A DNA stretch of 40,558 nt. It comes from Balneolales bacterium (GTDB taxonomy: Bacteria > Bacteroidota > Rhodothermia > Balneolales > Cyclonatronaceae). The DNA is taken from positions 1 to 40,558 of the forward strand of contig JAFIET010000030.1 in assembly GCA_020832405.1 (NCBI GenBank). Direction: 5' to 3'. Numbering within the stretch: position 1 is the first letter of the stretch; each line of letters starts with the position of its first letter. Below the pieces are notes generated by a model. It was not told the DNA's origin, did no database searches, and worked only from the letters and a program-made list of their open reading frames with translations. Below are positions 15,701 to 39,553 of the stretch, in pieces. The translations under genes and the position numbers were made by a program.

Positions 15701-18700
15701 GATCAGGTGCGTTACGTTGCCGTCTTTTACGATCGGATAGCCGGATGCCCGTACCCAGCGCTCGCGGCCTTTAGCCGTAATAAACCGGCATACCTCGTCG
15801 TAGGGCTCCATTTCTTCAATGGCCTTGCGCACACATTCGCGGATTCGGGGCTGATAATCCGGATGATAAAAGCTGATGCCGTCCAGCAGCATGATGTCGG
15901 TGCCCTTTTCTACTTCATGAATCCGGTACACTTCGTCGGTCCATGAAAGCCGTTCACTTTGCAGGTCCAGCTCCCAGGCACCGAGGCCTGAAAGCCTTTG
16001 TGCATCATTAAGTAAAATGGAGGTGCGCTCAAGCTCGCGCATGGCAGCTTTTTTCTCGGTGAAATCGAGCCCGTTACACTGAATTTCGAGTACTTTTCCT
16101 GCTTCATCCTGAATGCAGGAAAACTCCCACAGGATGGAAGCCTTGCCTGAATCCGAAAGGGATTTGGCAAGCTCGAGCTGAATCACGCTGTCGGGTTTTT
16201 GCCGGAGTGTTTCCAAAGCTTCGAGATATTTCGGGACATCTTCCTCAACAACGGACACTCTGAATTCCTGCCCCGCCACTTGCTGAGCTGTTTCGGATAC
16301 GCGGTACTGATTGCCGAATACGGCCATGAATTTCCGGTTTGCATAGGTGATGCGCCCCGAGGCATCCATGCGCACGATGAAGCTGTTCTGTGTTTCAAGC
16401 AGGGCTTTGAGGCGGCGTTCGCTTTGCAGCGCTTTCTCTTCGGCATCTTTGAGCGGGCTGATGTCTGAAATAATGCCGTCGAGCCGCAGGGCCTGCCCGT
16501 GCCCGTCCAGAATGATCCGCCCCTGATTCCGGACCCATTTTACCGCTCCGCTCTTTGTTTTTATGCGGTAGGTTTGGTCGTAGGTACCCCGCTGCTCCAG
16601 GTCTGCCATGATGCGGCTATGGGCTTCATCATCTTCCGGGTGAATGCACTCGGCCCAGAGCTGCGGGCGGCTGTACCAGGTGTCGGTACTGTAGCCAAAT
16701 AATGCTTCCGCAGAGGGGCTGATCATGCGCAGACTGTAGTCGGGCAGGGTTACAGACCATACCACATCGGTCAGTTCATTGAAAACACTTCGCAGCTTTT
16801 CACGTGAATCAGCCAGCTCAAGCAGCAGGCGTTTGCTTTGGTCGATATCCTGAACGATGCCGTAATAGCGTACAATCCGGCCGTTTTCCGTAACCGGTGT
16901 GCCGGTTGCCCGAACCCATTTTGTTTCACCGGTTTTTTGTGGAATGATCTGAAGCTCCAAATCGTAAGACACGAGCTCGGCAGCGGACTTCTCAGAGGCT
17001 TTCAGTAGCCTTTCCTGACTTTCCGGGGTGAATAAGGAGAGCATGAAAGGCTGATCGATAAGGGTGTCCCTTTCGAGTTCGAACAGATCATAAAGGGTTT
17101 CATTCCAGATGATGGCATCATGCTCCGGCAGGAATTCCCAGCCGCCAACCCTTGCAACGCGGTTGGTTTCATTCAGAAAGCGGCGGGTGCTAAGCAGCTC
17201 TGCCTCAGATTTTTTCCGGGCCGTAATAACTTCTGTTGTACCGATAACGCGGCTGAATGCTCCTTCCTGGAAAATTTTAATCGCTTTACTGTGGTGATAT
17301 TCTTTGGAACCGTCGGGTAAAAGAACCCTGTATTCGATGTCGAAGGGCACATTATCAGAGAGGAATTTTTCAAGAGCTGTTTCCACAGCGGCCTTGTCGT
17401 CAGCATGGAGCATGGAAACCCAGTTTTCATACTGAAAGCAAGGTTTATTATCGCTTTGAAGTGTTTTTAGCAGGTAATCACTCCATACGATGTTTCGGGT
17501 TTTGGCATCCATTTTCCAGATACCGATACCGGTTCCCTGAAGTACAGCGTCAAGTTCTTCGTTTACCTGCCTTACCTGTTCCCTCACCATATCCAGTTTT
17601 TTGCTGTCGTTGTGCTGCCGGGTGATGTCGAACAGGATGCCGTCTGTGATAAGCGGGCCGTTGCTCTGTGGCTGCAGCACCCTGCCTTTTTCAAGCAGCC
17701 ATCTGATGCTGCCATCTTTATGCATTACGGGATAACTTATTTCGTAGCTGCCGCCGGCCTGTACGGCCTTGTGTAATTTGATTTGTGTGGCTTCAAGCGA
17801 ATCAGCGGGGATGAGGGTGTCGAAAGCGCTGCGATTTGCGCCTAAGAAAACTTCCTGATCAACTCCGACGAGTTCCTGCATGCCGTCGCTGAGGAAGAGA
17901 AACTCCCGCGGCTGATCGTACCGGCAGCGGAACGCTACCCCGGGGATGTTTTCCATCAGGGAGTGAAGCTGATCCCGGCTTGCCTGAAGCTCGTTTTCGG
18001 TTTTTACCCGATCGCTGATATCTTCGATAAACGACCATATCTGCTTTTTCCCGTCTTCATTTTCGGTTACAAAGCCCCTCAGCTCGACCGGGTAGCGGCT
18101 GCCGTCTTTCCGGATGTATTCTTTGCGAAAGGTTTCATAGCGCCCGCTTTCTTTCATCTGTTCCAGCGCACGTTCTTCCAGCGGGCGGTATTCCGGAGGG
18201 GTTGTATCCCAGTAAGAAAGCTTCAAAAATGCTTCGCGGCTGTAGCCGGTGGGTTCGAGCAGTTTGTCGTTCACAAATATGAATGCACCGGTCTCAAAAT
18301 CATTGAGCGCAATGCCGATGGGGGAGGCAGCATAAAGGGTTTCAAAAAGCTGCAGCTGCTTTTGTGTACCGGGTGTTGCGGCACCGCGGTCGGTTGCCTT
18401 ACGTACACAGCCGATCAGCTGTGGCGCGTTTGGGTCAGCTGTGGGGTGCATCCTGCCTTTAAAGCTGAAACGCTGCCAAACCTGATCAGCGGAAATGAAA
18501 GCGGCTTCAAAAACGAAAGGTTTACCTGCATCCGGAGCGTACAGGAATGAATCAAGAGCAGCCTGTAAAATTCGGCGGTCGTTCGGATCAATAATATCGG
18601 TCCATTCCGGAAGGTCCTGTTCTTCAGCAGCCTCACCGTATCCAAGCCACTGCCAGAAGGTGCTGCTGAACCGGAGGTCGTTTTTGTTTTCAGGATTCCA

Positions 18701-18796
18701 AATCCAGATACCGTCAAAAGTAAGGTCGAACAATAAGGAGGTAATGTCGCTGCAATCAGTGCTGAGGTGTGCAGGCTCTTTATCCGGGTGATTCAT
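12761..18796 (-). CDS. Giant soluble multi-PAS hybrid sensor histidine kinase with two receivers
   Basis: This 2011-residue protein has no signal peptide or transmembrane helix, so it should sense cytoplasmic signals. About ten PAS domains, mostly PAS_3/PAS-PAC type, lie in tandem: roughly 18-140, 148-265, 272-400, 410-528, 530-660, 663-790, 793-915, 920-1045, 1050-1172 and 1178-1295. A GAF domain follows (about 1300-1470). The HisKA domain has MSHEIRTPLNG with phosphorylatable H1496, and the ATPase domain shows the N box (INLLNNAVKF), DTGIGI and GGTGLGL. The first receiver keeps the acceptor aspartate (D1781 in VDYDMP) but has VVCQHS where the acidic pair should be and SRPV instead of KP. 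The second receiver is canonical, with VDD, D1942 and SKP. No Hpt domain or partner regulator is adjacent. Ligands are unknown; some PAS domains could bind haem or flavin, but this cannot be seen. Confidence 0.95.
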   Translation of the reverse strand: MNHPDKEPAHLSTDCSDITSLLFDLTFDGIWIWNPENKNDLRFSSTFWQWLGYGEAAEEQDLPEWTDIIDPNDRRILQAALDSFLYAPDAGKPFVFEAAFISADQVWQRFSFKGRMHPTADPNAPQLIGCVRKATDRGAATPGTQKQLQLFETLYAASPIGIALNDFETGAFIFVNDKLLEPTGYSREAFLKLSYWDTTPPEYRPLEERALEQMKESGRYETFRKEYIRKDGSRYPVELRGFVTENEDGKKQIWSFIEDISDRVKTENELQASRDQLHSLMENIPGVAFRCRYDQPREFLFLSDGMQELVGVDQEVFLGANRSAFDTLIPADSLEATQIKLHKAVQAGGSYEISYPVMHKDGSIRWLLEKGRVLQPQSNGPLITDGILFDITRQHNDSKKLDMVREQVRQVNEELDAVLQGTGIGIWKMDAKTRNIVWSDYLLKTLQSDNKPCFQYENWVSMLHADDKAAVETALEKFLSDNVPFDIEYRVLLPDGSKEYHHSKAIKIFQEGAFSRVIGTTEVITARKKSEAELLSTRRFLNETNRVARVGGWEFLPEHDAIIWNETLYDLFELERDTLIDQPFMLSLFTPESQERLLKASEKSAAELVSYDLELQIIPQKTGETKWVRATGTPVTENGRIVRYYGIVQDIDQSKRLLLELADSREKLRSVFNELTDVVWSVTLPDYSLRMISPSAEALFGYSTDTWYSRPQLWAECIHPEDDEAHSRIMADLEQRGTYDQTYRIKTKSGAVKWVRNQGRIILDGHGQALRLDGIISDISPLKDAEEKALQSERRLKALLETQNSFIVRMDASGRITYANRKFMAVFGNQYRVSETAQQVAGQEFRVSVVEEDVPKYLEALETLRQKPDSVIQLELAKSLSDSGKASILWEFSCIQDEAGKVLEIQCNGLDFTEKKAAMRELERTSILLNDAQRLSGLGAWELDLQSERLSWTDEVYRIHEVEKGTDIMLLDGISFYHPDYQPRIRECVRKAIEEMEPYDEVCRFITAKGRERWVRASGYPIVKDGNVTHLIGAFQDVTDFEADKERIRQEQQFSKQVLANMSDGFSLVDAGGVQLEVNKAFCEMTGFSRDELIGRTQPFPYWPQEHTEHITAVLQQTLVPHSSGKTFELSFCRKDGSQFPVLVSFSKLTDRENRVRFTFANIRDITERKQYETALEAKEKKWKSYIQSAAHGIVVISRQGKILEVNPAVSSITGYPNSKIPGLTVFEFLPESEAERITESIREVFSNKTIMLELDIRTRNGAVKTLSVSAVALDSGNILLILTDITQQKKDERNLIRNQEMLQAIALATAGLLSNPDTKTAFRDSLMLVSKALQAEQAYVFDLHENEQGLFARHTFECYTDGRPPVNGHAHLQQVPLKLLGEAALLLNSGKTYQVLRNSLQGDGILADVMDQQGIKAMILAPIVIDGITISIIGFDRLHVSELWNRNEQALLLSFAGSIASALQRSRLLESLQESRKLAEVANKAKSEFLANMSHEIRTPLNGIIGFTELLQRTTLDTVQQQYARNVQLSGKALMEVINDILDFSKIEAGKLELEIIKTSLRRCVEESCDIVSYQTAAKKLELILNIQPGLPEMIETDPVRLKQICINLLNNAVKFTESGEIELTVTHEPTGSGRARFEISVRDTGIGISPEQQEKLFKAFSQADTSTTRKYGGTGLGLKISALLAGKLGGSLKVESEAGKGSRFFFTFESSCSLPEMYQKAVFGNTIYKNVLVVCQHSANRSLLQQYLQYWNIDAECSPNGFEAMNMIESKNFGLLFVDYDMPYIDGFDTVRIIRHKMNIDADKLIVVMLYNGPLGPENEQQQQELGIRYHLSRPVKKQELLDILLRIENENEATDSPVSGIAAKTAAAEAPRDPDLYGEATLVSGKTKILIVDDVPMNIILLRSLISGLYPNAAIIEAGNGREGVELAALHKPDIIFMDVQMPEMDGLEATRTIRKYNSKVPIIALTARVLKDEQAYTMESGMNYFLSKPIETAELSKVLKMWLPDVR

Positions 18797-23264: not shown

Positions 23265-23906
23265 ATGAAAATTCTCATTTGCTGTAACGGCGAGCCCCCC
23301 TCGCTGCCGCTGCTGCACAGGCTGGAAAGCTGGAGCGAAAAAGTGATAGGAGCCGACGGCGGCGTTTTCACCCTGCGGGATGCGCAGATTGCTCCGGATT
23401 ACATCATCGGGGATATGGACAGCTTTAACCCGCTGCAGGATGTGGTGGATGCGGGCGCGACCCTGCTGCGGATGGGCGATCAGGAAACCAACGACCTCGA
23501 AAAAGCCCTCAGCCTGAGCAAAAACCTGCAGGCCACAGAAGTGATCGTTGTCGGCGGCACCGGTTACCGGCTCGATCATACCCTCAAAAACCTGAGCTGC
23601 ATGCAACGCTTCAACAATGCTTTTGAGCGCATTGTGCTGATTGATGATCACTGCATCACGATTGTGTTGCCCCGCGAGTTCCGGTTCAGCATTGCGGCCG
23701 GAACCATCGTTTCGCTGTTTCCGCTGTCGGGCCGGGTGGATGGCATCACAACCCGGGGCCTGAAATACGAGCTCAGCAACGAGCCGCTGGAAAACGGCCT
23801 GCGCGACGGCTCCTCCAACGAAGCGGTTGAGACCGAGGTACACATCACCCATGAAAACGGCAGCCTGCTGCTGATGCTCCCCTCGCAATGGCCTTTGCCC
23901 TTTTAG
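23265..23906 (+). CDS. thiN: Thiamine pyrophosphokinase
   Basis: The enzyme transfers pyrophosphate from ATP to thiamine, giving thiamine diphosphate directly; it is a salvage enzyme for imported thiamine. The 213-residue sequence shows the family's pieces in order: ADGG in VIGADGGVFTLRD, GDMDS in YIIGDMDSFNP, QETNDLEKAL, and GGTGYRLDHTLKNLS. The C-terminal thiamine-binding region includes GTIVSLFPLSG and GLKYELSNEPL. Length is normal. No THI-box riboswitch sequence was recognised upstream. Its last 19 bp overlap the start of a sodium:solute symporter gene, suggesting coupled expression of uptake and phosphorylation. Confidence 0.93.
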   Translation: MKILICCNGEPPSLPLLHRLESWSEKVIGADGGVFTLRDAQIAPDYIIGDMDSFNPLQDVVDAGATLLRMGDQETNDLEKALSLSKNLQATEVIVVGGTGYRLDHTLKNLSCMQRFNNAFERIVLIDDHCITIVLPREFRFSIAAGTIVSLFPLSGRVDGITTRGLKYELSNEPLENGLRDGSSNEAVETEVHITHENGSLLLMLPSQWPLPF

Positions 23907-25306
23907 ACTGGCTTCCGCTTTTCGTTTACTTTGCGCTACTGGGTGTGCTCACGCTGCGGCGCAAGTATGCCGGCCATCACGCGGGGGATGAGGCCGGCTT
24001 TTTGCTTTCCGGCCGCCGCCTCACCCTGCCCGCTTTTGTGGCTACGCTGGTTGCCACCTGGTACGGCGGCATACTCGGGGTAGGCGAGTTTACCTATCTC
24101 GCCGGGATCTCGCAGTGGCTGATGTTCGCCTTCCCCTACTATGTTTTTGCCGTGCTCTACGCGGTATTCATAGCAGGGGAAATCCGCGAAGGCAGCGCCC
24201 TCACCCTGCCCGAAGCCCTGAGGCAGCAGTACGGCCCCAAAACCGGCCTCGCCGGTGCGTTCGGGGTGTTCCTGCTGGTGAATCCGGCACCCTATATTCT
24301 GATGTTAGGCATCATCGCGCAGCTGGTTACCGGCGCCGACAGCTGGTTCTGGTTTGCCGCGGCCGTTGCGCTGTTTTCCACGGTTTATGTGAGCCTTGGG
24401 GGATTTGCTTCCGTGGTGCGGACCGACCTGCTGCAGCTGGTGCTGATGTATGGCGGCTTTGTGATGCTGCTCGCATTCGCCTGGCAGGCCGCCGGTTCGC
24501 CGGCTGAAATGTGGACACAGCTGCCGGAATCGCACACGGACATCACCGGCGGGTTTTCGGCGGTCTATATTCTGGTTTGGTTTTTTATTGCGATGTGGAC
24601 CTTCGTAGATCCGGGCTTTCATCAGCGGTCGGCGGCTGCGGCGAGTCCGGCCGTGGCCAGGCGCGGCATCCTCATTTCGGTCGGTTTCTGGGCTGTGTTT
24701 GATATGCTCACGGTGCTCACCGGCCTGTACGCGCTGGTGCTGCTCGGGCCGGCACTCGAAAGCCCCGCGGCGGCCTACCCCGAGCTGGCCGCGCTGCTGC
24801 TGCCTGCGGGCCTGTTCGGCCTGTTCATCACCGGCCTGGTAGCGGTGATTATGTCAACCCTGGACAGTTTCCTGTTTATCGCCGGGCAAACGCTCGGGCG
24901 GGATGTGTTCCCCGGCAGCGTGAAAGGGGCCGGCTTTTTGGGCAACCGCATCGCCCGCATCCGTGCCGGGACCTTAGCCGCGGCCCTGCTTGGCCTGGCC
25001 CTCGCCTTCGTTTTCCCGAGCGTGATCGAGCTCTGGTACGTGATCGGCAGCCTGATTATCCCTGCGCTGCTGCTGCCGGTGCTGGGCATCTACCTGCCGT
25101 TTTTCAGGATGCGGCCCGGAGCTGCGCTTGCTGCCATAATCGCAGCTTTCAGCCTCTCGCTGTTCTGGCTGGTAATGGGTGTCGCAACCGGCGACAGCCT
25201 CTTCTCTTACGCCTGGCTGGGCATCGAGCCTTTCTACCCCGGCCTTGCCGCAGCCGTCCTCATTTTTGCCGCTGACCGCATCCAAAAGCAGCCATCAATT
25301 TGCTGA
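23888..25306 (+). CDS. Sodium:solute symporter family transporter, candidate thiamine importer
   Basis: The 472-residue protein belongs to the SSS family (PanF/PutP type) and has about 13 membrane segments. The N-terminal half carries the family features: DEAGFLLSGRRLTLPAFVATLVATWYGG, GGILGVGEFTYLAGISQW and EALRQQYGPKTG, a variant of the usual EFLxxRY element. Another recognisable block is SVVRTDLLQLVLMYGG, like the TDxxQ motif of SSS proteins. It ends IFAADRIQKQPSIC. Substrate specificity is not encoded in an obvious motif. It starts inside the 3' end of the thiamine pyrophosphokinase gene (19-bp overlap), and SSS members (ThiV) have been predicted as thiamine transporters from such associations, so thiamine or a precursor is the leading guess. 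Confidence 0.88.
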   Translation: MAFALLDWLPLFVYFALLGVLTLRRKYAGHHAGDEAGFLLSGRRLTLPAFVATLVATWYGGILGVGEFTYLAGISQWLMFAFPYYVFAVLYAVFIAGEIREGSALTLPEALRQQYGPKTGLAGAFGVFLLVNPAPYILMLGIIAQLVTGADSWFWFAAAVALFSTVYVSLGGFASVVRTDLLQLVLMYGGFVMLLAFAWQAAGSPAEMWTQLPESHTDITGGFSAVYILVWFFIAMWTFVDPGFHQRSAAAASPAVARRGILISVGFWAVFDMLTVLTGLYALVLLGPALESPAAAYPELAALLLPAGLFGLFITGLVAVIMSTLDSFLFIAGQTLGRDVFPGSVKGAGFLGNRIARIRAGTLAAALLGLALAFVFPSVIELWYVIGSLIIPALLLPVLGIYLPFFRMRPGAALAAIIAAFSLSLFWLVMGVATGDSLFSYAWLGIEPFYPGLAAAVLIFAADRIQKQPSIC

Positions 25307-25569: not shown

Positions 25570-26928
25570 TTATTTGAGGAGGGTGATGCGGAGGCTGTCC
25601 GTTAGCTGACCGGCCCGGAGCTGCAGCAGGTACACGCCGCTCGGCAGGCCGAAGCCGCTTGCATCGAGGGCGTGCTGATGCGCGCCGGCTGCGCGGGCGC
25701 CTTCGGTGAGGACGCCGATTTGGCGGCCCTGAAGGTCGTGCAGGCTCAGGCTTATTTCTGCTGATTCCGCAAGCTCAAAGCGGATCACGGTGCGGTTGTT
25801 GAAGGGATTCGGGTAATTTTGCAGCAGCATCAGCTGTGCGGGCTGCTCCGGCGCGGCGGGCCCGGCCGATACTGCATCCCCGAAAATTTCCTGGTAAAAA
25901 GCCCAGCCGCCTGCCTGCTGAATCGCGCTGAGCACGGCCGGCGCCTGATGCGCAAGGCCCTCAAATACGTACCACTCGTGGGCTATGCCGAGGGTGAGGA
26001 GGTGCGCATGGAAAGCTTCGTTGGCGGGGAAAACATGGTCGGCGTCGCCCAGGGCAATCCGCAGCCGCACGGGGTATGCGGGGGCGGCTGCGTACTGCTC
26101 GGCGAGCCGCCACGGACTTTGTGCCTCGAAGTACTCCTGATCGCCGCCAAATACTTCGTTGAAGATGCGCAGCCTCACGGGAAAGGGCACGAGGCCGGGC
26201 CCGTCGGCAAGCAGATCGAGCTGAAGCGGTCCGGCGCCGAGCATGGAGCCTGCCGCAAAGAGCTCCGGGAATTTGAAGATGAAGCGGCCCGCCCCGTAGC
26301 CGCCCATGCTCCAGCCCTCTGCGATGCGCGCCTGCCGGTCGGGGATGGCGCGGTAGGCGGCCTCGATGTGCGGAATGAGCTCCTGAATGATGATGGTTTC
26401 GGCGGGCTGTGAGCCGTCTTTGGCATCCACATACATGCCTTCGGGCAGTCCGTTGGGAAAAACGACCAGGGCTTCGGGCATTTCGCCGGAAAGCATGGCG
26501 TTGCGGAACATTTGCGAAACAATGGGGATGCCCGTTGTGGTCGGGGCCCCGCTGCCGTGCAGGTAGTACACGGCGGGATAGCTCCGGCTCAGGTTCGCGC
26601 TTTCATCCCAGCCGGGCGGCAGCAGCACATGGTAGCTTACTGCCTGCCCCGCAGCTTCACTGAAGAAGGTGCCGTACACCACGCCCGGTGCCTCAACCGG
26701 ATTCGTGACCCAGCCGTGCTGCGGCTGCGCGGCTGTGAGGATGGGGCTGATGGCCTGACATGCGATGAAGGCCATTAACACGGCGAACCAGGAAACGATC
26801 CGCGGCAGGGATTCAAATGCGCGGATGAAGCTCAAAGGAAGAGATTTCGGGTTCAGGACTCGCTGATTGAAGCCGGAATTTGGATGTAGCATTTTGCACG
26901 TGTTGTTTTCGGGTACGGGTGTCGTCAT
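25570..26928 (-). CDS. Secreted esterase (esterase D/feruloyl esterase-like) with T9SS sorting domain
   Basis: The protein has a signal segment (SWFAVLMAFIACQAISPIL), an alpha/beta hydrolase domain and a C-terminal sorting domain. The hydrolase part begins after TAAQPQHGW and carries the nucleophile elbow GWSMGG (S207 from the start used here), with plausible partners in GDADHVFPAN and GLAHQAPA. This fits the 'putative esterase' family that includes esterase D and feruloyl esterases; the substrate is unknown. The last ~80 residues begin [19 protein letters not shown] and end in a Lys after a beta-rich stretch, the T9SS type A signal, so the enzyme should be exported and surface-bound or released. 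The start is uncertain: ATG at 26928 or 26892 precedes the signal peptide, whereas the frame continues to a GTG at 27081 that overlaps the upstream gene by 4 bases. Confidence 0.82.
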   Translation of the reverse strand: MTTPVPENNTCKMLHPNSGFNQRVLNPKSLPLSFIRAFESLPRIVSWFAVLMAFIACQAISPILTAAQPQHGWVTNPVEAPGVVYGTFFSEAAGQAVSYHVLLPPGWDESANLSRSYPAVYYLHGSGAPTTTGIPIVSQMFRNAMLSGEMPEALVVFPNGLPEGMYVDAKDGSQPAETIIIQELIPHIEAAYRAIPDRQARIAEGWSMGGYGAGRFIFKFPELFAAGSMLGAGPLQLDLLADGPGLVPFPVRLRIFNEVFGGDQEYFEAQSPWRLAEQYAAAPAYPVRLRIALGDADHVFPANEAFHAHLLTLGIAHEWYVFEGLAHQAPAVLSAIQQAGGWAFYQEIFGDAVSAGPAAPEQPAQLMLLQNYPNPFNNRTVIRFELAESAEISLSLHDLQGRQIGVLTEGARAAGAHQHALDASGFGLPSGVYLLQLRAGQLTDSLRITLLK

Positions 26929-27077
26929 GGCCGGACCGGAATGGTTTCGGATGGTTGCGGAAAATTCAGGAACTAAGACGAACCGGGCGAACCGGGGTTC
27001 GCGGGTTTTTGGCGGGATGCAGCTTTGTTGGAAAAAAGCTGAGTAAAAAACAGCACGCTTGAGTCCCCTAATCATCA

Positions 27078-29969
27078 TCACCGTGTGTTCCCGAATACGT
27101 GCAGCTTGCCGCGGGTGGGCTCCCAGCCGAGGCCGATGCCGAGGTCAATCGGCAGGTTGTAGATGCGGAAGCTGCTGCGGAGTTCGAGTCCGTACACCGC
27201 GCGACCCGCGGTTGAGAGGGGCGCGCCGCCGGTTTCATCCAAATCGAGGATGTAATTGGCCTGCAGCGCCAGGTAAACGCGGTCGGCGAAAAAGGGTACC
27301 GAGATGAAGCCGTCGTCGATGTAGCGCAGGGGCAGTACGTAGCGGGCGCGCAGCACGGCTGCGTTGCGTACCCCGGCCAGGATGTTGGTTTCGTAGCCGT
27401 CGTACACCAGGCCGGAGGTGCCGTAGAGCCGGGTGCGGGTTTGGGTGAGGCCTTCGGCTCCGAGCAGCAGCCCGTGATTGCGGCTCATCCACGGGCTCAG
27501 GTACTGATTCAGCCCAAAGCGCAGGCCTTCCACGCCTTCGTCGCGGTCAGAATAAACGTAGCGCTCGCCCTGCACAAACAGCACCGTGCCGGTGTTGGGC
27601 ATGATGTCGCGGATGTTCTGCTGCCAGCGCCAGTACAGGGCGGCAAAGCCTTTGAGTGAAATATCCGTGAACCAGCCGTCGAAGCCCGGGGCATCGGGAA
27701 TGAGGAACAGATTGTCCGCATAGCGGATTTCCCGTGCGGCGATGCCGGGCCTGAACTGCCAGAAGCTGTTGCGGGAGCGGTGATCGATGCGGCCGAAGAA
27801 GGGCAGGGAGAGTTCGCCCCCGCGCTCTTCGTACAGGCCGATGCTGGTAAACCGCGGCCGGTAGAAGGCATCCAGCTGCCAGCCGGGGTAAAAGGTGGTG
27901 TTGCGGTAGAACATCTCGGTCCAGAGCCGGCTGTCTGTTACGGTCACTTCCGCCTGCCAGGAGTGCCGGCGCAGCACATCGCCGCCTGACATCAGCACGC
28001 CAAAGCGGGATTCGCGCTGCTGTTCCGCGAGCTCGAGCACCGGAACTACTCCCCGCGGCCGCAGCCAGCTGAAGCCGGTGCGGTACGCGCTGAGCGACCA
28101 GTCTTCGAGCTCGTCTTCGCGGTAGTCGGAGAGGCGCGAGGCAGCAAAGCGCTCACGCAGCTCGGGCTGGAAATCGACCGGCTGAAAGCTCCGGCTGCCG
28201 AAATCGGCGGCATCGAGTACGCGCATCACCCGGTTGCTGCCTTCCTGCGCGATGTAGAGCAGGGCCCCGCCATCGGGCCGTAGGTCGGGTGTGGTAGCGC
28301 CGAAGGGCTCGCTCGTGAGCTGCTGCAGTTCGCCCGCTGCGGGAAAATAGCGGTACACCTGAGCGGGTTCCGTGCCGCGCATCCAGCCGCTGAGCAGCAC
28401 CGATTGGCCGTCGGGGGCCCAGGCGGCATCGAGCACCACGCCCTGGCGAAAGCCGACATCCGGATTGCGGCTGAGGGCTGCTTCGAAGTCGTCGCCCTCC
28501 ACCAGCCACAGGGCCTGAATGCCGTTCCGGTTGGCGATTACGGCCCAGCTGCCGGGCTGCACGGGCGAAGGCTCGGCCTGCACCCAGGTGTCGGGCTTCA
28601 GGCTCAGCAGCTCCGTTACGGCTCCCCCTTCGGAAACGCGCACCAGCTGCTGCGTTTCAGATTCGGTACGGAGCGCGGTAAAACCCGGAAACACATCCCC
28701 CGAAAAAAAACGGCCGCTGCCGGCCTGCTGCGCGGGTGCGTGGAGCCGTGCCCCTTCGGTGAGGCGGGTGTGCCGGCGCGTTTCGAGGTCGAGCGCGTGC
28801 ACATCCATCAGGGCGGTGTTTTCGAACCAGGGGTGGCTGTGGTAGCGGCTGTAGAGCAGCTGCCTGCGGTCGGGCGAGAGCGAAAAGCGGAAGTCGCCCA
28901 CCTGCCGGGTTTCGAGCAGCAGCTCGGGCGCGCGCCCCGAAACGTCGGTTACATAAAAACCGGGCCGGCTGTTGTACTGCGTGCCCTGCGCGAACAGGAT
29001 GCGCTCGTTATCGAGCCAAACGGCCCGGCCAATGTGCACCTCTTCGGCGGTTTTGGGCAGGGTATCGGCCGCGGTTACCTCAGCCGCCTGCGTGCTTTCG
29101 GCAATTTCGGCGCGGGTTTCTTCGAGGTAGGCCGCGTAGAGCCGCCGGGGCGCAAGCCCGGTTGCGTGCCGCAGCGCCATGCCGTAGCCAAAAAAGGGGT
29201 AGCGCACGAAGTATTCGATGCTGCGGCGGGTGGTTTCCATGCCGTAGGTGTACTGCAGCCAGCTGATAAATTCGAAACCCGCCGTGTAGTGCCGGTTGCC
29301 GGGGAAGCTGTAAAAGGCCGGGTTGAGGTGCTGCGCCAGCGACCACGGCTGCGGACCCGAGAGCACGGCGCGGGTCTGATCGCGGAACAGGCTGTAGTTG
29401 CCCCGGCCGCCGCTGCCGTACACAATGTTGCTCTCGTGGAAAACCGCAATGCCCTCAATCATGCCAAAAGGGGCCGCACCGTGTATGGCGCGGCCCATGT
29501 CGGGCCAGAAGGTATAAACAAAATGCGGCAGGCTGTTTTGGGGGATATTTGAAAAATGCAGGGCGTGCACGAGCTCGTGCGGGGCCACATTTTCGAGCCA
29601 GCCGCCGGTGCGGGGGTTCAGCGCAGGACCCTTAATGGCCGGAATCTCAATCTCGGTGCGGAAGTGCAGGGGCGTTACATAGCCGTTGGAAAGGTCGTTG
29701 TGCGCGTTCAGCACCACGGGGAAGTGCCGCAGCTCGCCGCCCACCAGCGAGCGGATAATCGGATACTGATCCTCCAGAATCCGTGCCGTGCGGAAAGCCG
29801 CAGACTCCTCCCCGGCCGGGAAAATGACGCGGAAGTGCGGGGTGTCGAGCTGTTTGAGTTCAAGCGCCGGACGGTGCACGTTTTCGTAGATCTGGGCAGA
29901 AGCCACATGCGGCGAAAGACAAACCAAAAGAATGAGGAGGGCGGGCAGGAAAAGCTGACGGATAAACAT
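27078..29969 (-). CDS. Zinc-metallopeptidase-like, beta-propeller, outer-membrane barrel fusion protein
   Basis: From ATG 29969 the product has 963 residues. A signal peptide (MFIRQLFLPALLILLVCLS, cleavage near VASAQ) begins it; the frame extends upstream but those residues precede an internal signal and are probably not translated. Residues about 40-260 form a gluzincin-like peptidase: HELVH has H131, E132 and H135, and E172 in EGIAVFHE is a fit for the third zinc ligand. Residues about 270-640 contain TolB/WD40-like propeller repeats such as SPDRRQLLYSRY, WAPDGQSVLLSGW and RPDGGALLYIAQ. From about 650 to the end, alternating aromatic beta strands with YVLPLRYIDDGFISVPFFADRVYL resemble an outer-membrane barrel. 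A surface-exposed protease anchored by its own barrel is the likely role, though catalytic activity is inferred. Confidence 0.82.
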   Translation of the reverse strand: MFIRQLFLPALLILLVCLSPHVASAQIYENVHRPALELKQLDTPHFRVIFPAGEESAAFRTARILEDQYPIIRSLVGGELRHFPVVLNAHNDLSNGYVTPLHFRTEIEIPAIKGPALNPRTGGWLENVAPHELVHALHFSNIPQNSLPHFVYTFWPDMGRAIHGAAPFGMIEGIAVFHESNIVYGSGGRGNYSLFRDQTRAVLSGPQPWSLAQHLNPAFYSFPGNRHYTAGFEFISWLQYTYGMETTRRSIEYFVRYPFFGYGMALRHATGLAPRRLYAAYLEETRAEIAESTQAAEVTAADTLPKTAEEVHIGRAVWLDNERILFAQGTQYNSRPGFYVTDVSGRAPELLLETRQVGDFRFSLSPDRRQLLYSRYHSHPWFENTALMDVHALDLETRRHTRLTEGARLHAPAQQAGSGRFFSGDVFPGFTALRTESETQQLVRVSEGGAVTELLSLKPDTWVQAEPSPVQPGSWAVIANRNGIQALWLVEGDDFEAALSRNPDVGFRQGVVLDAAWAPDGQSVLLSGWMRGTEPAQVYRYFPAAGELQQLTSEPFGATTPDLRPDGGALLYIAQEGSNRVMRVLDAADFGSRSFQPVDFQPELRERFAASRLSDYREDELEDWSLSAYRTGFSWLRPRGVVPVLELAEQQRESRFGVLMSGGDVLRRHSWQAEVTVTDSRLWTEMFYRNTTFYPGWQLDAFYRPRFTSIGLYEERGGELSLPFFGRIDHRSRNSFWQFRPGIAAREIRYADNLFLIPDAPGFDGWFTDISLKGFAALYWRWQQNIRDIMPNTGTVLFVQGERYVYSDRDEGVEGLRFGLNQYLSPWMSRNHGLLLGAEGLTQTRTRLYGTSGLVYDGYETNILAGVRNAAVLRARYVLPLRYIDDGFISVPFFADRVYLALQANYILDLDETGGAPLSTAGRAVYGLELRSSFRIYNLPIDLGIGLGWEPTRGKLHVFGNTR

Positions 29970-31598: not shown

Positions 31599-33254
31599 AT
31601 GAGAAATTTTAAGAGTGTATGGTTTGGCTGTTTGCGTGCGTGCGTTTTCATTACCGCTTTTCTTCTGCCGCTTTTGTTGCAGCCGGCGGCTGAAGCTCAG
31701 GTCATCGGGGAAACAGAGGATTTCCCCTTCCGCATTTCGCTGCAGCCGGTTGAAGTGCCCGAAATGCCGCCCATTCATTCGTTTGCTTTTGCCGTATCGG
31801 GTGATGACATCCTGATTGTGGGCGGGCGTATCGACGGACTGCACGCCCGGCAGCCGTTTGCTGCATTCCCGCTGGCATCGAACAATCAGCAGCTGATAGT
31901 GGTCAATCCCGCGCAAGGCATGGTATGGACCGCCCCGCTGAGCGGTCTGCCGGTACCGCAGCGGGAGCAGCTGCAGGCAACCAACATGAATTTTTATCAG
32001 CTCGCCGATACGCTGTATGTTATGGGCGGCTACGCCTACGCGCCCTCGGCAGATAATCACATCACCTTTCCGTACCTCACAACCATTCAGGTTTCACAGC
32101 TGATTGCCGGGGTGAAGGCGGGTTTTGCGGATCCGGCGGCTGTTGGTCAGCTGGAAGACGAGCGCTTCGCCAATACCGGCGGACAAATGGGGAGCCTTAA
32201 CGGGCAGCTGCTTTTGGTGGGCGGCAACACCTTTACCGGAAGGTATAACCCGATGGGTAATCCAACCTATGTGCAGGTATATCAGCCGCACATGCAGTTT
32301 TTTGAAATTGACAACAGCGGCCCCGCACCCGTGCTGGTGAGCCATTCCAAAATCACAAACGAGCAGCACCTGCGCCGCCGCGATTTCAACCTGCTGCCCT
32401 ATCAGTTCACCGACGGCCGTGCCGGCTACCTGGTGTCAGCCGGTGTTTTTCGTCAGGATGCGTTGCTGCCCTATTTGTATCCGGTGGAAATTGATGAGGC
32501 GGGCTTCTTTCCGCATGAGGGCACAGAGCAGCTGCTGAGCCACTACCACAGCCCCAAACTTTCCCTGCTCGATGCGGAAGGTGAGCTGCACATGATTTTC
32601 TTCGGGGGCCTTGCGCAGTATTACTATGAAAACGGTACGCTCATTCAGGATAACCGGGTGCCGTTTGTAAATACCATCAGCCGCTTTACCCGCTACACCG
32701 ACGGCAGTTTTGCAGAGTTTGTGATGCCGGAGCGCATGCCCGACCTGAAAGGTACCAACGCAGAGTTTATTCCGGCAGGCGGTCTTCCGCAAACCGAAAC
32801 GGGCGTGTTTTTGCTCAGCGAAACGGCATCGGAACATTCGCTGCGGCTGGGCTACATCATCGGCGGTATAAACACCCCGGAGCGTAACCCTTTTACCCAA
32901 AACCGCACGCAATTTACCTCGGCTTCCTCTTCTGTTTATGAAGTGATTCTGGAGCGGGAACCGGCTACAACTTTACCGGTATCGCTGCCGCAGCAGATTG
33001 CGCTGAACCAGAATTACCCAAATCCCTTCAACCCGGTAACAACTATTTCCTTTGTTCTGCCGGAACCCGCAGCGGTGCGGCTGGAAGTGTACAACATGCT
33101 GGGGGCAAAGGTCGCGACCCTTTATGATGGTTTTGCAGAGAGCGGGCTGAACAACGTGCGCTTCGACGGCTCAGCTTTGGCCAGCGGCATCTACCTTTAC
33201 CGGCTGCAAACCGCGGAAACAAGCCTGAGCAGGCGGATGCTTCTCGTGAAGTGA
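31599..33254 (+). CDS. Secreted kelch-like beta-propeller protein with T9SS sorting domain
   Basis: A 551-residue secreted protein. The signal peptide spans about 1-34 (MRNFKSVWFGCLRACVFITA..., cleavage near AEA). The body carries repeated double-glycine strands typical of kelch/galactose-oxidase propellers: ILIVGGRIDG (about 71), LYVMGGYAY (about 140), LLLVGGNTF (about 205), MIFFGGLAQ (about 334) and GYIIGGIN (about 419). The blades are irregular, so the exact propeller count is unclear. The C-terminal domain (about 465-551) begins [21 protein letters not shown] and ends in MLLVK, the T9SS type A signal. No catalytic residues were recognised, so binding to other surface molecules or polysaccharide is more likely than enzymatic activity. 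It converges with a lipoprotein gene, leaving only 24 bp between the stop codons. Confidence 0.85.
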   Translation: MRNFKSVWFGCLRACVFITAFLLPLLLQPAAEAQVIGETEDFPFRISLQPVEVPEMPPIHSFAFAVSGDDILIVGGRIDGLHARQPFAAFPLASNNQQLIVVNPAQGMVWTAPLSGLPVPQREQLQATNMNFYQLADTLYVMGGYAYAPSADNHITFPYLTTIQVSQLIAGVKAGFADPAAVGQLEDERFANTGGQMGSLNGQLLLVGGNTFTGRYNPMGNPTYVQVYQPHMQFFEIDNSGPAPVLVSHSKITNEQHLRRRDFNLLPYQFTDGRAGYLVSAGVFRQDALLPYLYPVEIDEAGFFPHEGTEQLLSHYHSPKLSLLDAEGELHMIFFGGLAQYYYENGTLIQDNRVPFVNTISRFTRYTDGSFAEFVMPERMPDLKGTNAEFIPAGGLPQTETGVFLLSETASEHSLRLGYIIGGINTPERNPFTQNRTQFTSASSSVYEVILEREPATTLPVSLPQQIALNQNYPNPFNPVTTISFVLPEPAAVRLEVYNMLGAKVATLYDGFAESGLNNVRFDGSALASGIYLYRLQTAETSLSRRMLLVK

Positions 33255-34154: not shown

Positions 34155-34340
34155 ACACAGGAAAATGCAGGCACCCGGAACAATTTCCCGGATGGGCTGA
34201 ACCTAAAAGGGCATGCGTAACATCAGCTTAATATTAAATTGCTAAGTTGTCTGCGAATCCAACATAATTTCATTAAATTCTAATGCCTGTATTTGAATTG
34301 CATCCGTCAGCACGAAAAAACAGACACCTGCAACCTTTTG

Positions 34341-34345
34341 AGGAA
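34341..34345 (+). promoter_or_regulatory. Ribosome-binding site deciding the giant's start
   Basis: AGGAA at 34341-34345 lies 9 nt before ATG 34355. It favours this codon over the earlier in-frame ATG at 34283, whose extra 24 residues would delay the signal peptide. Confidence 0.6.
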
Positions 34346-34354
34346 TACCAGATT

Positions 34355-37300
34355 ATGAAGAAACGACTGTTACGAACCTGTAACCTGCTGACCGTTTTAA
34401 TTGCAGGCCTTGGCCTGTCGTTATTTCCGGGCAACACTGATTTTGCAACGGCCGCCACAGCCGCCGATGACGAGCAGGTACTCATCCACTATTGGAATTT
34501 TAACGATGTGCCTAACCTGCTGAACAGCAGCTTTTCGCTGCTGAGCGGGCAGCTGATCACGACAGAGCTCACCGGCTCAGCCGAAATTGAGGACGGCGGC
34601 GGCAACGATTTCACCGGTGAAAACGCCCGGTTTGGCGATCCGGCCGACCGGCACCTGCGCGTAAATAATCCGCTTGGCGCTACGCTTTTTATCCCGCTGC
34701 CCACGACGGGTTTTGAAGACCCGCTGCTGCTGTACGAAGCCCGGCGCAGCGGTCAAGGCGGAGAGTTCCAGCTCGTCAGCTACACCCTCGACGGGGAAAA
34801 CTACACCCTTTTCGACACCATCAGCATCCCGAACGGCGCGCCGATTCTCTTTTCTTTTGACTTTTCGGGGATTGAAGGCGCAGCGGATAACCCCGATTTC
34901 GGTGTCCGCATCACCTTTGAGCAAGGCAGCGGCGGAACAGCCGGGAATCACCGCATCGATAACCTGACGCTTGAAGGCCTCTCGCTGGCTGTGCCGCTCG
35001 ACTATTTCAGCAAGCCCGAAGGCGAGCTGACCGAGCTGAGCAGCTGGGGCTCGGAGCCCGACGGCAGCGGAACTGCGCCCTCGTCATTTGCCCTCGATAA
35101 CGCGACCTTCACCATTCAAAACCGGGCAGCCGCAAGCATTGATGAGGTCCTTTCTATCTCAGGCCTCGGTTCGCGGCTGGTAGTAGGCAGTGGCACGGAG
35201 CCCGTCATCCTTTTTGTAAACGGCGAAATTGATGCAACCCTCGACCTTGCAGAGCTGGCAATCATACAGTTCACCAACCCGAACTATCCCGTGTTCGGTG
35301 ATTTTGCGCCTTCAGCCCAAGTAATTTTTACGGATGATGCCACCCTCATCCCCTATTTCAGCTATCCCAGCCTTACGCTTTCCGATATTGATCCCGTCTT
35401 TAGCGGGAACGGCACCGTTACGGTTACCGGCAACCTCAGCCTCAGCGGCACGGTCAATATGCCCGATGCCCGCGGTGCAGCTGAGTACACCATTCGTTTT
35501 GCCGGCGACCAAAATCAGCTCATTGCCACGAACGGAAACGTGCTGCGCTCCTGGAATCTGGACTTCATCAAAACTGCGGGCTCGGTTCAGGCTATGCCTT
35601 CAAGCATGTTTTCGTCTGACAATCAGATGAATTTTTCAATCGGTGCCGGTGCTTCCTTTGCGGATAACGGTGCCGTTTTTTATGCCGGTAATTCTCTGAA
35701 TATCGCCGGAAGCGAGGCCTCCTATAATTTCACAGGAACCTTCATCCTTGCCGGTACCGAAGCGGGTATCGTGAACGGGGCCGGAGCGGGCAACAATTTT
35801 AATGTGCGGGAGGGTGCCAACACCAACATCACGGCCGCGCTCAACAATCTGATCATCCGCGTGCCCAATACCGGTGGCGAGTTCCGGTTTCGCGACGGTT
35901 CAACCGATAGTTTCACCATCAAAGGCGATTTCATCGTTGAAAGTGGCGCCGCTGGCCGCCTTCGCTTTTACGACAACGAACTGTTTATTGGCGGAGATTT
36001 TATTGTTGAAGAAGGTTTCAGCGGCAGCATCGATACCTTCGAAGCACTGCACTTCAACGGAGCGGAACCACAGCTGCTGAGCGAAAACATCGGGCTGCGC
36101 ACCGATGTGCTCAATCTTGATAACGCTGCCGGACTCACGATTGAAGCCGGCAATCCGCTGGTCAGGGATGAGCTTATTTTTACCGCAGGCCTGATCTCTA
36201 CCGGCTCCAACGCGGCCCTTTTTGTGGAGGGCGATGCCGGTATCACCGGCGCCTCCGCTGAGCGCTACGTGAACGGACTGCTGGTGCGCGAAACCGAAAC
36301 GGCTGGGGCCGCAACCCTCGATTTCCCCGTCGGAGCAGGCGGCGTGTTCCGCCCCGTGCAGCTCACCCTGGCCCACAGCGACGATGCCGAAAACCTCTAC
36401 GGCGTACGTGCCGTTGCCGAAACCGGTCCCGGGTTTGAGCTGCCTGCCAACCTGAGTGAACTCGTTGAAGGGCATCACTACGTCATTTTCCGGGAGGGGG
36501 ACAATGAGCTGCTTTCGGCTTCCCTCACCCTCACCTACAACGAAAGTGAGTTCGCATTTCCGGCTGAGGAGCTGCAAATCGCCGGAACCGTTGGCGAAGC
36601 CTGGCAGAACTACGGCGGTACGGCCGCTGGAGGAAGCATCAGCAGCAGCTTCAATATCAGCGAATTCGGAGAGTTTGCGCTCGCCCGTTTGTTTGTGGAC
36701 AGCGCGAAAAGCATCACCTCATTTGTCTTTACGGATTTTGATCCGCCGCTTGCCGCCGCCATCGATGAGGCCAATCTGCTCATCACCGCGAGCGTGCCCT
36801 TCGGCACGGATGTGAGCAACCTCACGCCCGAAATCGAAATCACGGGCGTAAGCGTCGATCCCGCCTCGGGCGTGCCTCAGAACTTCAGTGCCCCCGTAAG
36901 CTACACCGTTACCGCCGAGGACAACAGCACCTCGGTTTACTCGGTTGAAGTTACCGTGCTTGATCCGGTGCTCTACACCCTCAGCCTGAGTTCAGAGCCT
37001 GCGGGTGCGGGCGTTCTGAGCGGGGCAGGCAGCTATCAGGCTGGTGAGTCCGTTACGGTAAGCGCGCAGGCGAATGCCGGTTTCAGCATTGTGGAGTGGA
37101 CCGACGGCAGCAGTGTGCTCAGTACCGCGCCGGAATTTGTGTATGAGATGCCCGCTGCCAATACAAGCCTCACCGCTGTTTTTGAACCGGACAGCCGTGA
37201 AGCCCTGGCCTACTTTTTCTTCTTCGGAAATGATCTGCCCAACAATACCCCGCTGACCGAAATCGCCCCGACCTTTTCTGCGCCGGGCGGCGGACGCCTT

Positions 37301-39553
37301 GCCTATGAATCAGCCCTGGAAGGCTATCCGTTTGATTCATCACACCCGAACTGGCGGCTTGCATCCCTGGAGCGCCGCAACGCGCCTACGCCGGTCAACT
37401 ATCGCCCGGAAGGCAACAGCGGCATCCCCTTTGAAAACAGCGTGATGCGCGCCATTCAGGTGAAGCAGCCCTTTGCTGATAACGGCCGCGAGAACACGGT
37501 CATTTTCGAACTCCCGACCCTCGGCTTCGAAGACGTACTGCTTTCCCTGGCCGTGCTTGACGAAGGCGCCGCTCAGGCACTGGTGTTTGACTACTCCGTG
37601 AGCGCCGGTGAGCCGCAGTGGACGACCGAAGGCATGCCGCAAACCGAGTTTGCTATCAGCGGGAGCTATCAGCTGGTGCTGGTCGATTTTGCCGGCATAG
37701 CAGCCATCACCAATAATCCGGACTTCAAAATCCGGATGCGCTTTATCGGGGATGACATGAGCGCGGATAACGGCGACCGGGTGACCTTCAACAATATCGC
37801 GCTTGAAGGCAACGAGGCCGAACTGCCTGAACAGGCTGTTGCGCTTGCATTTACGCAGCTTGCACCGACAGCGCAAACGGGGCTCACGGCGCGTCCGCTG
37901 GTAATCCGCGCCCTCACGGAGAGCGGTTTCACCGATACCGATTACAGCGGTGAAATTACGCTCAGCATTGCCGAAGGCAGCGGAAGCCTCGAAGGAACCC
38001 TGAGCCTGAGCGCCACAGAAGGCGTTGCGGTTTTTGAGGATGTAAGCTTTACCGGTTTCGGAGCCATCACCCTGCAGGCAGCCGCAGAAGACCTGCAAAC
38101 GGCGGTGAGTGCGCCCGTGCAGGTGGTTCAGGTCACCGAAGTGGTGATGCCGCAGTTCATGCAGGGCGAGCAGGATGAAAACGGCGACAACCTCAACCGT
38201 ATCCCGTTTGTGTACCGCATCACCCTTGAGGGCCTCACGCCGGAGGCGACCTACCGCTATGGCAACCGCGTGGTAAATGCGGAGGACGGCCCGGAGAGCA
38301 GCGGTGCCGGAAACGCCGTCTTCGTGAAAACCGACGGAAATGATTTTATCCGCACGACCAACGCACCGCGCTTCCGTCCCACGGATCTCGACGTACGGCA
38401 CTCCGAGTTCACCACCGATGCGGAGGGCAGCTTCACCGGCTGGTTTGTCACCGAGCCGAGCGGCAACGCGCGCTTCACGCCGGGCGGCGAACTGCAGATG
38501 CGCGTCATTCTGAACGATGGTGCAGAAGGGGAAGATTTGTTCTTCTTCCTCACAGCGCCTTCTGCGGTGCAGGTAACTGGCTTTGGTACGGAGGAAGCAG
38601 CATCGACCGGCGTTTATGCGGCTTCTGATTTCGAAGCCAAAAGCGTGATGCTCTTCTTTGATAACGCCGAAGCGGCCGGGCGTCCGCTCACTGCATCGTT
38701 TGTAGAGGCAACCGGCGCTGTAACCGACGACCGCTACGCCGCCTTCTTCGATGAGCTGGTATCAGGCAATGCCGGATTCTTCGGCAGCCTCATCCCCAAC
38801 AACCTGCCCGGCGGCGTTCAGGCGCTGACTGCGCACGAGCTGCTCACCGCTGAGCTGATAGAGCTGCTCGTCCGGGAGGATGGCATCTGGGGCGGCACGA
38901 CAACCGTGAATCCGAACGGCGGACTGAGTCCGCTCTTCCTGCAGCTCACCGATGCTCCGGAACCGCCCGCGGCACCTGAGCTTGTGAGTCCGGAAAACGG
39001 CGCCACCGATCTCGTCGACTTATTCTTCACCTGGCTTGCAGCTGAAGGCGCCGATTTCTACGAAATTGAGTTCAGCTACACCGATGAGCGGGACGGCACC
39101 TTCACCTACACAAGCGATACGACAGAAATTGACCTGAACGATGAAGACATCTTTGAAGGCGGCACCATCTACGCATGGCGCGTCCGGGGTGTGCTGGTAA
39201 CGGATGAAATAGCGATTTCCGGTGAATGGTCGGAAAGCTGGCTGTTTACGACACGCTTATTTGTATCGGTTCCGGGGGAAGAGCTCCCGCTGGAAACGGA
39301 GCTTTCTCAGAATTATCCGAACCCGTTTAACCCCACGACCATCATCCGATTTGCCCTGCCTGAAGCGCAGCAGGTACGGCTGGAGGTATTCAACATTTCG
39401 GGTCAGCGGGTAGCAACGCTCATCAACGGCATGCAGGCCGCCGGCCGGCACAGCGTGACCTTCGATGCATCTCACCTTTCAAGCGGCATCTACCTGTACC
39501 GCATTGAAGCGGGCAGCTTCAGTCAGGTCAAAAAAATGATGCTGGTCAAATAA
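34355..39553 (+). CDS. Giant secreted mosaic surface protein with T9SS sorting domain
   Basis: The 1732-residue product begins with a signal peptide ([20 protein letters not shown]...). Recognisable regions in order are: a first beta-rich module (about 35-210, with [11 protein letters not shown] and [14 protein letters not shown]); a long beta-helix-like stretch rich in G, N, T and S (about 230-780, with VTGNLSLSG and FIVEEGF-type strands); a DUF5018-like domain (about 784-870, [10 protein letters not shown]); an InlB-type bacterial repeat (about 873-946, [20 protein letters not shown]); and a second copy of the shared module (about 949-1155). A bacterial Ig-like domain (about 1162-1260), a further beta domain, a fibronectin III-like domain (about 1537-1634) and the T9SS sorting domain (about 1647-1732, [15 protein letters not shown]) complete it. 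No catalytic residues are seen; adhesion or matrix function is inferred. A terminator follows. Confidence 0.9.

Follow-up and report, generated by a model that had tools for sequence, protein, structure and literature searches.

The window analysed here, a stretch of 40,558 nucleotides forming positions 1 to 40,558 of contig JAFIET010000030.1 of a Balneolales bacterium (source genome of 3.96 Mb in 188 contigs), carries on its reverse strand a gene whose product is best read as an outer-membrane-anchored zinc metallopeptidase, facing the periplasm and serving envelope maintenance in the manner of BepA, a reading for and against which we place about equal weight. A preliminary description made from the sequence had proposed a surface protease that anchors itself in the outer membrane. 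The open reading frame, the signal peptide and the positions of HELVH (131-135) and E172 that it gave are all found in the sequence as described, and its three parts, namely a gluzincin peptidase, a TolB-like propeller and a barrel, hold up on orthologue invariance, family hidden Markov model matches, profile-profile comparison and covariation ladders. With signal peptide, gluzincin-type peptidase, TolB-like propeller and outer-membrane-type barrel all in one chain, a self-anchoring protease remains the best reading, and one that is well supported. The features of the gene, all on the minus strand, are as follows.

27078..29969 (-): whole gene, 963 amino acids (aa), with a Met start at 29969 and the stop at 27078-27080
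29895..29969 (-): residues 1-25, by eye a probable Sec signal peptide; ASA precedes Q26 and no lipobox cysteine was seen
29070..29891 (-): gluzincin-type peptidase domain, residues 27-300, from a profile match to Peptidase_MA_2-type domains
29565..29579 (-): HELVH, residues 131-135, with the catalytic Glu between two candidate zinc ligands, in 131/131 orthologues
29454..29456 (-): E172, candidate third zinc ligand, in 131/131 orthologues
29286..29288 (-): Y228, candidate transition-state tyrosine, invariant in 131/131 orthologues
28200..29042 (-): TolB/PD40-like beta-propeller, residues about 310-590, from family PD40/TolB matches and a PDB profile search
27081..28052 (-): Omp85-like outer-membrane barrel, residues about 640-963, from hhalign to Omp85 and antiparallel ladders

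Peptidase, propeller and barrel of the window protein

Conservation was followed in three samples. The MAFFT alignment included 82 of 88 loci, with L008 and L010 removed as duplicates of L002 and L003, L031, L055 and L092 as cut or short, and L081 for an odd 5' extension; the set of 131 orthologues comprised the hits scoring 250 or more, out of 154; and a wider recount of 162 matching frames restored the dropped ones except for duplicates. All 131 aligned orthologues share H131, E132, H135, E172, G173, R189 and Y228, and E172, which sits within GMIEGIAVF, is likewise found in 82/82 sequences of the MAFFT alignment. Within the wider set, HExxH was aligned in 158 of the 162 frames, while the other four align only elsewhere yet carry HELVH, and the position of E172 is occupied by Glu in 155 of those 158, the three exceptions aligning with a shift. 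Because it is invariant across the 131 aligned orthologues, the HELVH/E172 motif is not a chance occurrence. Gluzincins (clan MA(E)) combine HExxH with a downstream Glu as third ligand, and the predicted catalytic Glu and the later Tyr of the window family are invariant beside the candidate ligands, as expected of working gluzincins.

Profile comparison points in the same direction. The peptidase profile matched the Peptidase_MA_2-type domains of the same genomes with an E-value (E) of 1.1e-11 (probability, P, 97.4; 222 columns, with HELVHA on HELVHA), the column-shuffle control for this match giving 0.042 at best (20 shuffles), and it matched the corresponding domains of long paralogues and of Bacteroidota-type relatives at E 4.6e-25 and 3.1e-36, respectively. 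Eight of the 18 proteins of these last two groups reached Peptidase_MA_2 itself at E<=0.1; none of 45 members of the window family did so at that threshold (PF13485), and the window protein gave no match to the M48 model PF01435. The domain is probably a gluzincin-type peptidase, for which metal-dependent proteolysis is predicted from sequence. Comparison with an orthologue of 81% identity revealed purifying selection on the whole gene (non-synonymous divergence, dN, 0.131; synonymous divergence, dS, 0.678), with dN/dS of 0.090/0.942, 0.149/0.577 and 0.101/0.660 for the peptidase, propeller and barrel, respectively, the peptidase domain thus having the lowest ratio of the three. At the N-terminus of the predicted mature protein, Q26 shows a conservation of 0.99 in the MAFFT alignment (82 sequences).

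The central domain, probably a propeller of six blades, scored 20.2 bits against PD40 (cut-off 20.9) when the window protein was scanned alone, and 20.7 bits against the TolB model TIGR02800, far under the equivalog cut-off of 343. Among the family members, PD40 was matched at E<=0.1 by 38/45 and the TolB model by 45/45, and a PDB search with the propeller profile returned TolB structures as best matches (E 5.9e-18). Taken on sequence profiles, the likeness to TolB is one at the level of the fold.

The profile of the C-terminal domain matched Omp85 proteins of relatives in hhalign at E 9.3e-5 (P 59, 152 columns), with a shuffle control of 0.099 at best (20 shuffles), and the barrel of the long paralogues matched both Omp85 (E 1.6e-10) and the window family represented by 63 rows (E 1.9e-6). 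Other outer-membrane barrels gave E 0.077 (TonB receptors), 0.27 (FadL-type) and 0.037 (LptD), so that a TonB-, FadL- or LptD-type identity, at 0.037 or worse versus 9.3e-5 for Omp85, was rejected. Omp85 was also matched in Pfam by one of the 45 family members (E 6.8e-7). Covariation across the 131 sequences disclosed antiparallel ladders at 643/658, 673/686, 718/745, 743/770, 819/839, 835/876 and 920/956; ladder windows over 5 numbered 15 antiparallel versus 2 parallel (14 versus 4 in the mean-field version), and segments within 50 residues of each other were joined by nine of the top ten antiparallel ladders as against 3/10 parallel ones. This covariation supports an antiparallel meander in the C-terminal domain. 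The regular expression 'RD-P-G', present in 124/131 orthologues, was dropped as evidence of Omp85 likeness, being found also in 54/131 reversed sequences and in only 12/30 real Omp85 proteins. The set labelled ma2 was excluded from the motif counts, 10 of its 11 frames being cut by locus ends.

Distribution, paralogues and gene neighbourhood

Within the order, 116 of 128 genomes gave a match to the window gene at E<=1e-30 (76/83 among those of good quality), and in a sample of the phylum 153/296 genomes matched at E<=1e-3, the more distant ones through paralogue-like or diverged proteins. No relative was found on plasmids, nor on viral contigs scanned with the 45-member alignment. In three more frames of the same genome, HExxH likewise precedes a propeller; these are L079 with 1137 aa, L143 with 1054 aa and L144 with 1003 aa. 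Paralogue L143 scored 37.9 bits against Peptidase_MA_2 (cut-off 32.4) and, on its C-terminal slice, 35.8 bits against Omp85 (cut-off 24), a match that did not appear in a scan of the entire frame at E<=0.01; the C-terminal slices of L079 and L144 gave no Omp85 match. A single frame with Peptidase_MA_2 and Omp85 both over cut-off, matched by contig and frame length, occurs in 7/13 genomes. The peptidase domain of L144 (1981-4989 (-)) is a borderline Peptidase_M48, with 20.9 and 18.1 bits in two scans (cut-off 20.3), and its C-terminal part retains VRGY. The domain design is thus real and widespread in the order; the combination had at first been described as unusual, a description hard to keep in view of the 116 genomes, the three similar paralogues and the propeller-Omp85 fusions already published in 2014 (PMC4104836, as far as its main text goes).

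Directly upstream of the gene and on the same strand, 75 of the 131 loci, all being counted whatever their upstream length, carry a TrhA/HlyIII and/or an Nramp-type gene, with none on the opposite strand. An Nramp-type transporter is found upstream in 53/131 loci and both genes in 27/131, and a HlyIII/PAQR gene in 49 of the 127 loci having 300 nt or more upstream; where the distance between HlyIII and the metallopeptidase gene was measured, the two overlap by 1 or 4 bases in 17 of 48 cases. Examples of the pair preceding the gene are L138 8708-10654 and L290 3666-5960. The HlyIII assignment was confirmed by Pfam for five proteins, and two match NCBI's TrhA equivalog over its cut-off; that of Nramp was supported for four complete proteins by Pfam, three of them also by NCBIfam. 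A 286-aa Nramp-like piece cut by its locus end, one of four further frames checked, had no Pfam match. Within the window's family no steady neighbour of the gene was found; in the window's genome, HlyIII and an Nramp homologue lie elsewhere, at C2 and C117.

Among the remaining genes of the window, two frames near the metallopeptidase gene encode type IX C-terminal sorting domains, a putative esterase (25570-27081 (-)) and an otherwise unnamed 551-aa frame (31599-33254 (+)), and a third such frame (34283-39553 (+), 1756 aa) contains an InlB-type repeat domain. A coupling to the downstream esterase was considered and rejected: a homologue (L133:10104-11606, 79% identical) lies near the gene in one of the 12 loci of relatives that were compared, in G005. 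In this closest species the orthologue and the homologue of the esterase are separated by a Fic/DOC family gene (L133 8800-9975); the window frames are directly adjacent. In G004 the orthologue is followed immediately by an open frame of 1731 aa (L134 8268-13460) with no Pfam match at E<=0.001. A thiamin pyrophosphokinase gene (23265-23906 (+)) runs into the beginning of a sodium:solute symporter gene (23888-25306 (+)), the product of which is a candidate transporter of thiamin or a precursor; the closest species has the same pair, at 77% and 80% identity. The region 12761-18796 (-) encodes a hybrid histidine kinase of 2011 aa, in which many PAS domains are combined with a GAF domain and with response-regulator domains.

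Cellular location and possible role

The N-terminal domains of Omp85 proteins lie on the periplasmic side of the outer membrane. The barrel of the window protein is closest to this type, and the enzyme domain of PlpD, once thought to be displayed outside or secreted, was found exclusively in the periplasm, according to the accessible part of the report (PMC11116518). Because of the domain order and this precedent, the peptidase most likely faces the periplasm, and the attribute 'surface' in the preliminary description is not supported. We propose that the chain would be exported by Sec and its C-terminal domain inserted by BAM as a closed barrel, with peptidase and propeller remaining in the periplasm; the propeller may keep a substrate or partner near the active site and present it to the zinc site, where proteins of the envelope would be cleaved, the likeliest targets being outer-membrane proteins that are stalled or in surplus, or the partners of these. 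With all its parts in one chain, the protein might thereby play the role that BepA has at the BAM complex of E. coli. LptD is present in the organism, as are three M48-family frames encoded elsewhere and well over the Pfam cut-off. The near-universal presence in the order, together with the operon link to TrhA/Nramp in sister families, argues for envelope upkeep rather than feeding or attack.

Several results weigh against this interpretation. Taken alone, the window protein has no Pfam or NCBIfam peptidase match (Peptidase_MA_2: none at E<=1), and its residues 614-963 do not match Omp85 (PF01103) at E<=10. The L6 motif of Omp85 proteins is VRGF/Y, and the pattern [VILMF]RG[FYW] occurs in 7/131 orthologues, compared with 28/30 true Omp85 proteins and with a chance level of 8/131 in reversed sequences. 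Since the window slice has no direct Pfam match and the L6 motif is gone, the C-terminal domain is called Omp85-like on its profile resemblance and is not filed as a full member of Omp85. The match between the long paralogues and the window barrel weakened to E 5.4e-4 with the 131-row profile, and the barrels of the Bacteroidota-type relatives (PBbar) match that of the window at E 4e-16, yet Omp85 only at E 0.2; the Omp85 link therefore depends on the window family together with the long paralogues. The closed barrel of Omp85 proteins has 16 strands; no ladder closing the first strand onto the last was seen in the covariation of 131 sequences. Structure models built with AlphaFold from three alignment rows were too poor to judge barrel closure and zinc geometry in the full chain (predicted local distance difference test, pLDDT, 33.1; predicted template modelling score, pTM, 0.27) or zinc geometry in the peptidase domain alone (pLDDT 39); in the full-chain model, HELVH falls in a helix at 125-138 and E172 in one at 169-177, to which no weight was given. 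The TrhA/Nramp link, found in sister families, is missing from the family to which the window gene belongs, and genome G033 has Nramp beside HlyIII but no window-type orthologue, which counts against a tight functional link. Finally, the proposed substrate and activity are drawn by analogy only.

A protease displayed at the cell surface, with the barrel passing or presenting peptidase and propeller outside, would also account for anchor and enzyme sharing one chain, and surface delivery was raised as an option for non-POTRA Omp85 enzymes in the main text of PMC4104836. The resemblance of the barrel to Omp85, whose N-terminal domains are periplasmic, and the periplasmic location of the PlpD enzyme domain, as given in the accessible part of PMC11116518, speak against display; moreover, neither a passenger linker nor a type IX sorting tail was noticed in the window sequence, and retention throughout the order fits a core task better, so that we regard a surface protease as unlikely. 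An assembly or translocation factor, in which an Omp85-type machine inserts or exports clients trimmed by the peptidase, would agree with what Omp85 proteins generally do and with the idea of a fusion of BamA with a BamB-like protein put forward for WD40-Omp85 proteins (main text of PMC4104836). We judge it quite unlikely, as no POTRA model is among the Pfam families listed for the 45 members and the L6 motif is lost (7/131), although L144 keeps its VRGY.

The invariant motif could also have been retained for a structural purpose or a different hydrolase activity, the fold being a non-proteolytic, metal-binding scaffold or sensor. Metal sensing is conceivable, as the sister-family neighbours are a metal transporter and TrhA, and the peptidase activity of the members is itself a prediction from sequence; conservation in 131/131 orthologues extends, however, beyond the ligands to the catalytic E132 and to Y228, and this alternative appears very unlikely. 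Equally little credence is given to a propeller and peptidase targeting cell-wall-linked proteins or the TolB/Pal network at the periplasmic face instead of outer-membrane proteins: the nearest solved relatives of the propeller are TolB structures, but the likeness is one of fold, at 20.7 bits versus a cut-off of 343.

A more ambitious form of the periplasm-facing peptidase reading, which we consider rather doubtful, would see the protein as a self-contained quality-control station of the outer membrane, combining a BepA-like peptidase, a BamB-like propeller and an Omp85-derived barrel, core to the order and, in its ancestry, a member of a membrane-homeostasis operon of metal transport, TrhA and peptidase. 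The barrel would there no longer be an insertase, because the L6 motif was lost. Were this true, the puzzling PAQR/TrhA proteins would gain a partner in the outer membrane.

Comparison with known systems

Few outer-membrane proteins are as poorly understood as the non-POTRA Omp85 proteins, and the conserved gluzincin site, the order-wide presence and the operon link turn the vague label 'WD40-Omp85' into a testable envelope protease, with TrhA gaining a candidate partner. TrhA has been tied to membrane energetics, its mechanism being given as unknown in the accessible part of PMC9017321; a literature search found nothing to the point on a HlyIII-Nramp link. The TrhA/Nramp operon link is the freshest part of these results; taken as a single finding, the conserved, order-wide envelope protease is good annotation rather than a surprise. 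No description of a peptidase-propeller-Omp85 design was found in the titles and abstracts listed, a search that left supplements and subscription papers outside.

The closest published relatives are the proteins of the WD40-Omp85 subfamily, in which a TolB-like propeller precedes an Omp85-type barrel and which were likened to a BamA-BamB fusion (Heinz and Lithgow, 2014; main text of PMC4104836). These and the window protein alike have a propeller directly before an Omp85-type or Omp85-like barrel, without POTRA; by comparison with that main text, in which 'peptidase' has 0 occurrences and 'metalloprotease' is used for another subfamily with PF00149, the window protein adds a gluzincin peptidase ahead of the propeller. 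WD40-like Omp85 proteins were still listed as not well characterised in the accessible part of the 2024 PlpD paper (PMC11116518). PlpD itself resembles the window protein in carrying an enzyme domain before the barrel (Omp85 in PlpD, Omp85-like here), but its enzyme is a patatin lipase, not a metallopeptidase, and it has no propeller. Proteins of the L143 type, with Peptidase_MA_2, PD40 and Omp85, share the three-part order of the window protein, whose family is more diverged, remaining under both Pfam cut-offs where L143 is over both. As for function, the periplasmic zinc peptidase BepA of E. coli, an M48 enzyme which helps or degrades LptD on BAM, acts at the outer membrane, where a similar role is proposed here for the window protein as a putative zinc peptidase; BepA works on BAM as a periplasmic protein, whereas the window protein has anchor and propeller in one chain with its putative enzyme (PMC8423444, accessible part).

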